Below, in pieces: positions 27,594 to 31,269 of a stretch of 32,008 nt of DNA. The notes beneath the pieces are model-generated. The model searched no databases. It saw nothing but the letters and a program-made list of their open reading frames with translations, and was not told the origin of the DNA. The stretch's first letter is position 1. Each line of letters begins with the position of its first letter. The translations under genes were made by a program, and so were the position numbers. This DNA comes from Pseudomonadota bacterium (GTDB lineage Bacteria > BMS3Abin14): positions 1-32,008 of the forward strand of contig QIEJ01000241.1 in the NCBI GenBank assembly GCA_003228585.1. The letters run 5' to 3'.

Positions 27594-27670
27594 GGCGGTG
27601 TAGCTCAGGTGGTTAGAGCATGCGGCTCATATCCGCAGTGTCCGGGGTTCAAGTCCCTGCACCGCCACCA
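27594..27670 (+). tRNA. tRNA with CAT anticodon (elongator Met, or Ile2 if lysidine-modified)
   Basis: GGCGGTG acceptor, GCTC..GAGC D-arm, TGCGG-CTCATAT-CCGCA anticodon arm (CAT at 27628-27630), CGGGGTTCAAGTCCCTG T-arm, CACCGCC acceptor, encoded CCA. Confidence 0.95.
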
Positions 27671-27672
27671 AC
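27636..27672 (+). repeat. attL-like direct repeat (3' portion of the tRNA gene)
   Basis: CAGTGTCCGGGGTTCAAGTCCCTGCACCGCCACCAAC, identical to 29407-29443. Confidence 0.92.
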
Positions 27673-27713
27673 AGAAATAACCGTAATCGGCGATAAACTA
27701 TTACGGATAAAAG

Positions 27714-27752
27714 AAAAGCCCTCTTACAGTATCGGGCAGGAGGGGGCTTTTT
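27714..27752. terminator. Terminator-like hairpin just inside attL
   Basis: AAAAGCCCTC...GAGGGGGCTTTTT. Confidence 0.65.
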
Positions 27753-27754
27753 AT

Positions 27755-27777
27755 ATGACACAAGTATGACACAAAAC
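27755..27777 (+). repeat. Left subterminal repeat, possible integrase arm-type sites
   Basis: ATGACACAAGTATGACACAAAAC, two ATGACACAA units 11 bp apart. Confidence 0.6.
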
Positions 27778-27819
27778 CATGATAGCCGAAGGGTGGATAT
27801 TTGCGAACAGAAAGGCACC

Positions 27820-27849
27820 TTGACAACGCGGGCCCAACTAACCTAATCT
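27820..27849 (+). promoter_or_regulatory. Candidate sigma70 promoter of the three-gene operon
   Basis: TTGACA (27820-27825), 18-bp spacer, TAATCT (27844-27849). Confidence 0.55.
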
Positions 27850-27880
27850 CAACACCCGCACAATAACAAGGGGGAAGGTC

Positions 27881-28315
27881 ATGGGATACACCAAGGGTTC
27901 TGGAAAAAAGGGCACTAGTAGTAAGAAGGCTGCTGGTACCAAAAAGGCTGCTGGACCAAAAAAAGATGATGATTCAGTACCTGTCAGCATCATCCCTGTT
28001 CTTTCGAAGGATCAAAAGCCTGCATATGCGAACCACTTGAACATCAGCCATTCACACAACGATTTTCTGCTTGCCTTTTCCAACGTACAGCCAGCCATAC
28101 TGTCAGAAAAAGAACGCGAGCGCTTGGAAGCAACCGGTGAGTTGGTGATAGACCCCACGGCTACGGTTGTAGTACCAGTAACAATAATGTCTAAAATCAT
28201 CGATGCAATGATTGATAATTACACTCGGTATTTGGTAACTAACCGCGATAACATTAAATTAAGCGACTCAGATATAGCCATACTAGAAGAAATTGATAAA
28301 CGGAGTAATAAATAG
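27881..28315 (+). CDS. DUF3467-like protein with Lys/Ala-rich N-terminal tail
   Basis: RBS aagggggaagg; YANHLNISHSHNDFLLAFSNVQP...ATVVVPVTIMSKIIDAMIDNYTRYL matches the DUF3467 pattern; N-terminal KKGTSSKKAAGTKKAAGPKK. Confidence 0.7.
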   Translation: MGYTKGSGKKGTSSKKAAGTKKAAGPKKDDDSVPVSIIPVLSKDQKPAYANHLNISHSHNDFLLAFSNVQPAILSEKERERLEATGELVIDPTATVVVPVTIMSKIIDAMIDNYTRYLVTNRDNIKLSDSDIAILEEIDKRSNK

Positions 28316-28912
28316 ATGGCTGAGCCCGTAAAAAAAGTAGTTCGGATTGAAAATTTTGTAGAAGCCACCCACAAAAAAAAAGGCAAAATGGCTGCCGGAT
28401 GGAAAATTCCTGTTGGTATAATTGACAGCAGTAGTGGGGTAGCATCATCATTTATCTCAGCTGACAGTTGGGTTACTGATTTGGAATTGGAAAGTGCACC
28501 TTCAGCAAGACCTTATTCAATTTCTTCTGGAGAGGTTTCAGATAAAGACTTTTCTACTAGAGTGACCTTTTATGGTGCGCTTAGGGGACGCGCGCTCTCC
28601 AGGTCTTTTGCCTCTACGGTTGAAAGTGAACCTCTCACCACATCCCGAATTGTTCCTATCAATTCCCTGGGCAAAAACGGGGTTTCACTTAAACGGCCCA
28701 TTCATGTTGAGGTGCTCGAAGAAGAGGATGGTGTTACTGCCTCGTTCAGCGATGTTAATCTGTATGGTTTCGGGAAGACTGAAACGGCCGCACTCAATAT
28801 GCTTCGAGAGCAAATTGTGTGCCTCTATGAAAAAGTAAACTCTGAAGAAAAACTGGGTCCACTCCCAAGGCAGTGGAAAGTTATCCTGGGTGAGCTCATC
28901 GAGGCCAAATGA
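28316..28912 (+). CDS. Hypothetical protein, C-terminal HicB-like fold (candidate antitoxin)
   Basis: Abuts previous stop (TAGATG); C-terminus IHVEVLEEEDGVTASFSDVNLYGFGKTETAALNMLREQIVCLYEKV follows the HicB pattern. Confidence 0.65.
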   Translation: MAEPVKKVVRIENFVEATHKKKGKMAAGWKIPVGIIDSSSGVASSFISADSWVTDLELESAPSARPYSISSGEVSDKDFSTRVTFYGALRGRALSRSFASTVESEPLTTSRIVPINSLGKNGVSLKRPIHVEVLEEEDGVTASFSDVNLYGFGKTETAALNMLREQIVCLYEKVNSEEKLGPLPRQWKVILGELIEAK

Positions 28913-29226
28913 GTTCCACTGTTTATAAAACCCAAGAAATCAGGAGAGCACTTGAAAAGGCGGAAGCAGATCCTGGGCAGGCTGAAAAGACAGGTTTTGT
29001 TATAACTGGATCTAAACACATCAAGGCTGAATTTTTTTATAAAGGTGAGTGGATACTATCAACTTATGTTGCGCATTCAAAAGGCGATCTTCCACCTGGA
29101 ACGCAGAACAAAATTAGAAAACAACTTGAGCTGAATAGACCAGAGTTCGGAGATTTTATTGGATGTCCAATGAAGCTTCCAGGATTAGTCCAAACTTGGA
29201 AAGATAGCGAAGTGATTAAGGAATAG
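28909..29226 (+). CDS. HicA-like small protein (candidate toxin)
   Basis: ATGA overlap with upstream gene; GFVITGSKHIKAEFFYKGEWILSTYVAHSKGDLPPGTQNKIRKQLEL resembles HicA G-S-x-H ... kkdlpkGTlrkIlkql. Confidence 0.65.
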   Translation: MSSTVYKTQEIRRALEKAEADPGQAEKTGFVITGSKHIKAEFFYKGEWILSTYVAHSKGDLPPGTQNKIRKQLELNRPEFGDFIGCPMKLPGLVQTWKDSEVIKE

Positions 29227-29240
29227 TGACAATCTTTAAC

Positions 29241-29263
29241 GCGGGCTCCGGCCCGCTTTTTCT
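29241..29263 (+). terminator. Intrinsic terminator after the three-gene operon
   Basis: GCGGGC-TCCG-GCCCGC-TTTTTC. Confidence 0.88.
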
Positions 29264-29338
29264 TTGTCTTGACACCCCCCCCCCTGATTCCCCCTGGGCC
29301 TTTCCCTTAGGGAGGTCGTGGACGGGAAAGTGGTGACT

Positions 29339-29359
29339 ATGACACAAGTACGACAAAAC
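29339..29359 (+). repeat. Right subterminal repeat, possible integrase arm-type sites
   Basis: ATGACACAAGTACGACAAAAC, near copy of 27755-27777 in the same orientation. Confidence 0.6.
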
Positions 29360-29406
29360 AGCACAGGTGACAGGAAAAAGAGTTGATATGTCAACTGCTT
29401 AGTGCC

Positions 29407-29443
29407 CAGTGTCCGGGGTTCAAGTCCCTGCACCGCCACCAAC
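29407..29443 (+). repeat. attR-like direct repeat (tRNA 3' fragment)
   Basis: CAGTGTCCGGGGTTCAAGTCCCTGCACCGCCACCAAC, identical to 27636-27672; not a complete tRNA. Confidence 0.92.
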
Positions 29444-29446
29444 TAT

Positions 29447-29474
29447 AAAAAAGCTCCCGGTCGGGAGCTTTTTT
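29447..29474. terminator. Strong intrinsic terminator, probably the original tRNA terminator
   Basis: AAAAAAGCTCCCG-GT-CGGGAGCTTTTTT immediately after the tRNA 3' fragment. Confidence 0.88.
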
Positions 29475-29487
29475 ATGGTTGTTCTGT

Positions 29488-29538: not shown

Positions 29539-30093
29539 ATGGAGATAAAAAGGGAAAAGGACCGTGAGCGAAGTCTTGCACAAAAGGCCCGGAATGGAGA
29601 TTCGGAGGCATTCGAGGACCTTGTCCGGATTCACCAGAGAGCTCTCTATGCTTTTCTTTACCGACTCTCGGGGAATATGCATGATGCGCAGGAAGTATCC
29701 CAGCAGAGCTTCATCAAGGCCTACCTGGCTATGGCCTCATTCCGTGGGGAGGCGTCCTTCAAAACCTGGCTTTACAGGATCGCCGTCAACACCTTTCGCA
29801 ATTACGTGCGGGACGAGGGCAGAAGACGTCACCTTGCACTTGATGAGAACATACATTCCACGGATGAAGGGGCCTTCTCGCTGGTGGCCGGTAATCAGGA
29901 GCGGAGCATGCTTGAAAAGGCTATAGACACCCTTCCTGCCAGGCAGCGTGAGGCTCTTGTCCTGCGGGTCAACGAGGGCTACCGTTTCACCGAAGTGGCC
30001 AGGGTCATGAACTGTTCCGTTGGAGCGGCCAAGGCCAGCTATCATCAGGCCGTGCGTAAACTCAAGGCGGCTGTGGGAGGTGACCGGCGGTGA
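29539..30093 (+). CDS. ECF-type RNA polymerase sigma factor
   Basis: GDSEAFEDLVRIHQRALYAFLYRLSGNMHDAQEVSQQSFIKAY region 2, FKTWLYRIAVNTFRNYVR, LPARQREALVLRVNEGYRFTEVARVMNCSVGAAKASYHQAVRKLK region 4. Confidence 0.94.
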   Translation: MEIKREKDRERSLAQKARNGDSEAFEDLVRIHQRALYAFLYRLSGNMHDAQEVSQQSFIKAYLAMASFRGEASFKTWLYRIAVNTFRNYVRDEGRRRHLALDENIHSTDEGAFSLVAGNQERSMLEKAIDTLPARQREALVLRVNEGYRFTEVARVMNCSVGAAKASYHQAVRKLKAAVGGDRR

Positions 30094-30722
30094 AGTGCCG
30101 CGACAGATGGATAAAAACACGCCTTCCTGCCTTTGCAGCCGGGACTCTTCCGCCGGAAAAGAGAGAAAGGGTCCTCGCGCATTTAAGAGCGTGCGAACAC
30201 TGCGAGGAAGAGCACACACTGCTCGAATCAGTGAAGGTGCTGCGTGTCCCTGATCCCGGGGAAGAACACTGGTCATCACAACCAGGCAGGATCATGAACG
30301 AGATACTTTTGATGGAGGAAATGAAGCAAAAGGGTGGCGGCCGTCTCCGTCTGTTTCATTCCTGGACGCTTCCCGTCAGATGGAAACGGCTCACTGGACT
30401 GGCCGCAGGATCTGTGGCGGCAGTTGCTCTTCTTTTCGCTCTTTTCCCGGCAAAATCACCCATCACTGAAACAAACCGGGTCCTGAGGTTTAAACCCGTA
30501 TCGTTCATACAACTGGGTATGGAAACGGACATTCTGTCCGAAGGCGGCCAGAGGGTTGCCGATATAAGTTCAGCACTGGATATCGATCTCAAAGCGATGG
30601 ATGAGGGCCTGGTTCTCATGTCTGGTCCATCCGGGCATTCAGGGCTGGATTACCTGGGTATGACAACCGATGCGCTCAGAACCATGGAGATGGTTCTGGA
30701 TGAGATGTCCCGACAAGGATAA
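30090..30722 (+). CDS. Putative anti-sigma factor with zinc-finger (ZAS-like) N-terminus and one TM
   Basis: HLRACEHCEEEH H-x3-C-x2-C motif; TM GLAAGSVAAVALLFALFP; GTGA overlap with the sigma gene. Confidence 0.82.
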   Translation: MKCRDRWIKTRLPAFAAGTLPPEKRERVLAHLRACEHCEEEHTLLESVKVLRVPDPGEEHWSSQPGRIMNEILLMEEMKQKGGGRLRLFHSWTLPVRWKRLTGLAAGSVAAVALLFALFPAKSPITETNRVLRFKPVSFIQLGMETDILSEGGQRVADISSALDIDLKAMDEGLVLMSGPSGHSGLDYLGMTTDALRTMEMVLDEMSRQG

Positions 30723-30738
30723 GAAGGAGAGTGTGATC

Positions 30739-31269
30739 ATGCAAACCAGAATTTCCCTGTTCCTGACGATAGTGTGTACGTCGCTTGTCCTCGTATTTTC
30801 CATTCCGTTACACGCCTTCGGTTGGAACGATTTGCCGTCCGAACAGGACATCAGCCGCGTTCGGAAAAAACTTGAAACCTTAAGGGCCTGGGAGCTTACC
30901 AAATATCTGGAACTGAACGAAGAAACCAGCGCTAGATTATTCCCCGCAATACGCGATGCTGATGAACAACGTCTAAAGATCCAGGCTGAAAACCGGGGCC
31001 TCGTCCGACGGATGAGGGAAAGTCTGGAAGCGGACAGCCCTTTGACGGAGGAGATAAACGAGTACCTTGATCGCCTGCAGCAGAACAGGAAGGAGATGGC
31101 CCGTATTGAAGTGGAACACATGGAAAGGGTCCGGTCGATACTGTCAACCGAGGACACGGCACGATACCTCCTGTTCCTGGTCAGATTTCAGCGGGAGGTA
31201 AGGGAGCGGATTTCAAAGGCATCACAGGACAGGCGCAAGAACCGGAGCGAATCCCGGGAAAGAGATTAA
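30739..31269 (+). CDS. Periplasmic CpxP/Spy-like protein
   Basis: Signal peptide MQTRISLFLTIVCTSLVLVFSIPLHAFG; helical YLELNEETSARLFPAIRDADEQRLKIQAENRGLVRRMRE, typical of LTxxQ/Spy-like chaperones. Confidence 0.65.
   Translation: MQTRISLFLTIVCTSLVLVFSIPLHAFGWNDLPSEQDISRVRKKLETLRAWELTKYLELNEETSARLFPAIRDADEQRLKIQAENRGLVRRMRESLEADSPLTEEINEYLDRLQQNRKEMARIEVEHMERVRSILSTEDTARYLLFLVRFQREVRERISKASQDRRKNRSESRERD

Follow-up and report, generated by a model that had tools for sequence, protein, structure and literature searches.

Integrative elements that insert at tRNA genes leave behind a restored tRNA 3' end on one side and a direct repeat of that end on the other. At one tRNA(CAT) gene, such a pair of repeats encloses 1.77 kb of DNA that holds three small genes, and the question raised by this locus is whether the enclosed DNA is a real insertion and, if so, how it came to be there and what its remaining parts may do. 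The window, by which we mean the whole stretch of DNA that was analysed, is one complete contig of 32,008 bp from a MAG-like draft assembly of 276 contigs and 2.09 Mb that is 98.1% complete. The features discussed below are collected in Table 1.

Table 1. Features of the element and of its borders, in window coordinates
Feature	Position	Strand	Basis and remarks
tRNA(CAT), annotated tRNA-Met	27594..27670	+	ARAGORN; insertion target, 3' part doubles as attL core
attL core copy, 37 bp	27636..27672	+	100% direct repeat
Element-borne replacement terminator for the tRNA	about 27716..27755	+	Hairpin of -14.2 kcal/mol, then T run
Arm-type-like tandem pair, 2 x 11 bp, TATGACACAAG TATGACACAAA	27754..27775	+	Repeat D2; shuffles; motif by tRNAs elsewhere
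Gene 1, 144 aa, distant DUF3467-like, Lys/Ala-rich N-terminus	27881..28315	+	Pfam PF11950, E=0.0033, 17.9 bits, cut-off 25
Gene 2, 198 aa, putative HicB-like antitoxin (C-terminal domain)	28316..28912	+	PF24113 0.018, phrog_13047 0.0071, both weak
Gene 3, 105 aa, putative HicA-like toxin	28909..29226	+	phrog_353 'toxin' 5.1e-5; Pfam HicA_toxin 0.0073, below cut-off
Terminator of the trio, rho-independent-type	29241..29256	+	Hairpin
Second arm-type-like tandem pair, TATGACACAAG TACGACAAAAC	29338..29359	+	Repeat D2, 85% over 26 nt
attR core copy, 37 bp, former chromosomal tRNA 3' end	29407..29443	+	100% direct repeat
Native tRNA terminator, displaced by insertion	29440..29481	+	Hairpin; equivalent directly after tRNA in 8 relatives

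A real insertion at the tRNA(CAT) gene

The two core copies are identical at 37 of 37 positions, are spaced 1771 nt apart, and consist of the last 35 nt of the tRNA(CAT) gene plus 2 nt. Such a match within 3.6 kb lies far beyond chance. The core occurs at just these two places in the assembly, in which the whole element is single-copy. The DNA between the cores has a GC content of 0.443, as compared to 0.542 in the rest of the window. Exact duplication of the tRNA end and an AT-richer interior had both been claimed in an earlier note on this DNA, and both claims stand.

Relatives were searched throughout the phylum, which is represented by 12 genomes, all of one family and none of the same genus. 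Nine of these, including the window's own, match the tRNA gene, which is 95-100% identical in the relatives and has FtsY and/or acnB beside it in several; the order FtsY-tRNA-acnB, with FtsY upstream and aconitase B downstream, is kept around several of the tRNAs. In the eight others that have the gene, a T-rich terminator comes immediately after the CCA end of the tRNA, and no insert bracketed by att copies is present. The terminator of the closest relatives is plainly the same hairpin as the one located behind the second repeat of the window. Because tRNA and native terminator are adjacent in the eight relatives, positions 29407-29481 represent the old chromosomal tRNA end, and the present tRNA 3' end came from the element. 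The replacement terminator stands where the native one would, and the location of the native one after the attR copy makes this a tRNA 3'-end insertion in the classical sense. These comparisons show that the 1.77-kb element is a real insertion. The empty site that the earlier note had looked to relatives for, with the tRNA directly before the native terminator, is thus present in the family, and neither of the two patterns that the note had set against its own reading was encountered, namely the repeat occurring with no empty site and the trio occurring as core genome elsewhere. A larger island with the same att and trio was also looked for, and none was found among the family relatives or in the genome, phage, plasmid and viral-contig searches.

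Candidate arm-type sites and possible sources of an integrase

The element carries a second repeat, D2, whose copies at 27754-27779 and 29338-29363 lie in the same orientation and resolve into two tandem 11-mers per side. The two arm pairs match at 19 of 22 positions, a value not attained in 1000 dinucleotide shuffles of the 150-bp flank on either side, and the attR pair is slightly degenerate. Circularisation of the element gives the order arm pair, core, terminator, arm pair, and at the circle junction of the window the arm repeats lie at -73/-62 and +114/+125 relative to the core. Since a tandem arm-like pair is kept at each end, a whole attP-like site appears to have been retained. From the sequence and layout of these repeats, which lie on both sides of the core, we conclude that the tandem 11-bp units represent putative integrase arm-type sites. 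A palindrome-like sequence, AGTTGATATGTCAACT, stands at 29381-29396 between the attR arm pair and the core, and is a possible binding site.

The distribution of the arm motif is consistent with such a role. A search of 386 genomes for TATGACACAANTATGACACAA, allowing up to 2 mismatches and using the reversed pattern as the control, returned 22 sites versus 2 for the control. When the 2 sites of the window and 7 sites of a single genome (G319) are left out, 6 of 13 loci lie 62-127 bp downstream of a tRNA 3' end, for which a rough binomial estimate gives a chance of ~7e-10, a value that is only approximate because two of the 13 loci, from one genus, share sequence on visual inspection; the fraction is 6/20 with G319 counted. 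The loci near tRNAs belong to unrelated genomes, and integrase-like ORFs are found at two of the motif loci as well. The motif was not found elsewhere in the window's own genome. Integrase-less elements of this kind, which integrase-centred searches would miss, could be sought by a signature of tandem units of the TATGACACAA type located 60-130 bp downstream of a tRNA end. The seven G319 sites (L177, L192, L194-L198) are tandem motifs of the TATGACACAA type, and none is near a tRNA in the fetched stretches. An identical arm pair occurs in one phage-like viral contig (L166:5197-5217), between lysozyme-like and chemotaxis-receptor-like genes, where it might mark a prophage end. This is the sole viral contig with an identical pair; it has no tRNA and no copy of the window's core, and it supports at most the arm motif.

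Among the ORFs of the element, no match to an integrase or excisionase was found, as the earlier note had stated, and because no integrase is encoded the element is not classed as autonomous. The only tyrosine recombinases found in the assembly are XerD, which scores above its equivalog cut-off, and a XerC-like protein, which matches XerC best and falls just below the XerC cut-off. A resident helper integrase was rejected on the grounds that the assembly's two tyrosine recombinases are these; a helper integrase may lie in the missing 2% of the genome or outside the bin. An integrase-tail remnant was also considered at 29310-29380, where an open frame (...VVDGKVVTMTQVRQNSTGDRKKS*) runs over the attR arm pair. 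Its tail could be an integrase C-terminus, but it gave no match.

A phage provides an example of how the same tRNA half can be used. In a stretch (L050) of a 63-kb viral contig, ~50 nt of this tRNA half directly follow the gene for a 411-aa tyrosine integrase (PF00589, 8e-19). Its attP has AGTCACCC pairs at -94/-82 and +161/+173 from the core, plus a terminator hairpin, in the same order as in the window. The contig shows that the tRNA half serves as a phage attachment core. Because its AGTCACCC arms differ from the TATGACACAA arms of the window, L050 illustrates the mechanism but is not itself the matching helper. Relatives of its integrase in the window's family are limited to weak matches of 17-28 bits and 23-27% identity. 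In another genome with the same tRNA end (L159), TGTCCCAAA tandem pairs at +127/+138 precede an ORF with a match to the L050 integrase. Where other genomes have this tRNA end, the stretches fetched from them contained no second att core. Two findings strengthen the tyrosine-integrase origin that had been proposed for the element: the paired arm-like repeats, and a phage contig in which integrase, arms and the same core occur together.

A putative toxin-antitoxin operon as cargo

The three genes lie on the same strand, the first two abutting and the last two overlapping by 4 nt. Of the three genes, promoter and terminator described in the earlier note, the genes and the terminator are borne out, and the promoter is not, as promoter-like sites number 4 versus 3.1 in shuffles. 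The putative identity of the cargo is, like the arm-like pairs, an addition to that note.

Genes 2 and 3 look like a HicB-HicA toxin-antitoxin (TA) pair that is divergent in sequence. Gene 3 falls below the HicA family cut-off (PF07927, 16.8 bits vs 27), and the N-terminal half of gene 2 is unlike anything found. The best support for the HicBA reading is positional and comes from a genome of another, small phylum (G083), in which adjacent overlapping genes are homologous to the gene 2 C-terminus (E=4e-7 by pairwise BLAST) and to gene 3 (E=2e-9). The two-gene order is therefore kept across lineages in one independent case. The G083 pair is close to an 884-aa Eco57I/N6-methylase-type gene, a defence-like neighbourhood, and the counterpart of gene 1 there is an 87-aa ORF that is not recognisably related. 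A TA function is predicted for genes 2 and 3. The HicA survey (PMC10865869) describes two classes of HicBA, 7 and 8, that they resemble, and the likeness is one of resemblance only: the genes overlap, HicB is long and has no known DNA-binding domain, the HicB-like part is C-terminal, and the HicA-like partner is slightly long. Unlike those classes, the window's genes fall below family cut-offs, gene 2 has an odd N-terminal half, and an extra DUF3467-like gene lies upstream. Single-sequence AlphaFold models were poor (pLDDT of 47 and 32).

Relatives of the cargo are scarce. The gene 2 protein has none in the genome contigs, viral contigs, plasmids, phages, 60 relatives or phylum that were searched. 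Genes 1 and 3 have no relatives in plasmids or viral contigs, gene 3 has none in phages, and gene 3 has one match among the 386 genomes. DUF3467 is common, being present in 139 of the 386 genomes, and was considered as a marker of the trio. It was rejected because none of 30 fetched DUF3467 loci has a homologue of gene 2 or gene 3 beside it, and DUF3467 therefore does not mark the trio.

Origin of the element and competing explanations

We consider it probable that the element is non-autonomous and CIME-like, being what remains of a tyrosine-integrase island; a matching integrase might mobilise it in trans. A circular island would have been inserted into the 3' part of tRNA(CAT) by a tyrosine integrase, through recombination of a tRNA-matching attP core with the chromosomal tRNA. 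The end of the tRNA would have been restored from element DNA, which also brought a new terminator, while attR was formed by the old 3' end together with the native terminator. Later loss of the integrase and of any further mobility genes, most simply via internal deletion, would have left a HicBA-like TA operon with the partner gene upstream of it and, divided between the ends of the element, an attP that is structurally complete. This deletion is a step that we infer, as the searches yielded no larger relative in which the same ends accompany an integrase. Stabilisation of the element would be one role of the TA operon, and phage defence may be another. An incoming element with matching arm specificity could supply an integrase to excise and move the DNA in trans.

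CIMEs, or cis-mobilizable elements, are defined in PMC5704250, which cites Pavlovic 2004 and Bellanger 2011. Like them, the window element keeps attL and attR, has no integration or transfer genes, and holds cargo only. Known CIMEs are identified as decayed ICEs or IMEs via the relation of their att sites to a known ICE, whereas the searches run returned no parent for this element, and no parental ICE, IME or phage that shares its arms is known. It is also very small, at 1.77 kb, with a TA-like trio as cargo. The element also resembles the Pseudomonas tRNA/tmRNA defence islands I23, I44 and I55 (PMC12595487) in its location at the 3' end of a small-RNA gene, its direct repeats, its lack of transfer genes and its defence-type cargo. 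In contrast to the window element, those islands encode a tyrosine integrase, IntY, and AlpA. If the attP-like site is live, a tyrosine integrase would have in this element a natural substrate of very small size that carries selectable-type cargo. It could then help to show what minimum an island requires to move and how TA operons spread among bacterial phyla that are poorly known. As a relic, it would instead be a clean example of what selection retains in a decaying island, a TA-like operon and att sites.

The alternative that survives best is that the element belongs to a functional minimal lineage that has no integrase, carries TA addiction cargo, and is repeatedly excised and integrated in trans by the integrase of a helper phage or island. 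Such hitchhiking is paralleled by MITEs and CALINs (PMC11389934), which have no recombinase of their own and retain their recombination sites; unlike them, since they need transposases or integron integrases, the window element would by analogy need the tyrosine integrase of a phage or island. A complete attP-like layout is retained on both sides, the cores are perfect although the attR copy is under no tRNA constraint, and L050 shows the tRNA half in use by at least one phage. However, perfect cores are equally expected of any recent insertion, L050 has arms of another type, and the element is a single instance that the searches run did not recover from other genomes, phages or plasmids. We regard this lineage as unlikely. 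It is just as doubtful that there is an unrecognised class of integrase-less elements of <2 kb, each with a full attP and a TA operon and borrowing phage or island integrases of shared arm and core specificity, and the proposal that such a class would be the tyrosine-integrase counterpart of MITEs is equally tentative. For an element known from one instance, with neither a parent nor a second copy found, an origin by deletion from a larger island is the simpler view, and we favour a reduced island over a satellite mobilised in trans.

An assembly artefact, in which the contig collapsed a longer island between the att copies and the integrase was assembled elsewhere or lost, is very improbable. 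Identical repeats of 37 bp can mislead short-read assemblers and mobile DNA is often lost from bins, both of which are pertinent to a MAG-like draft of 276 contigs. Nevertheless, the interior forms a single coherent operon, both arm pairs are in place, and the 98%-complete assembly contains neither a third att copy nor an integrase beyond the XerC/D-like proteins. Least probable of all is that the TA operon arrived by a route other than an integrase and the tRNA end was duplicated by chance or homology. The TA operon of one of the eight relatives (G005), which lies in its tRNA-acnB gap with no att repeats, offers a precedent, but this route leaves the paired arm-like repeats, the replacement terminator and the match to a phage attP layout unexplained.

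The region between the tRNA and acnB varies in other respects. An ECF-type sigma factor operon (29539-31269) lies between attR and acnB in the window, and its best relatives in other family members are located away from the tRNA-acnB junction (11 kb beyond it in G009), which implies that the region downstream of attR has also been rearranged. In G005, the gap (L047:928-2213) contains a three-gene TA-type operon of a Gp49-like toxin, an HTH antitoxin and a SecB-like chaperone; no att copy was found there, and tRNA and terminator are adjacent despite this unrelated operon. After each of the two operons, that of the window (29241-29278) and that of G005 (L047:2234-2271), stands a 38-bp stretch consisting of the terminator and CTTGACA..CCC, with 84% identity between the two (E=5e-7). 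This is the sole such pair among the family loci examined, and it may be the shared tail of two cargo insertions.
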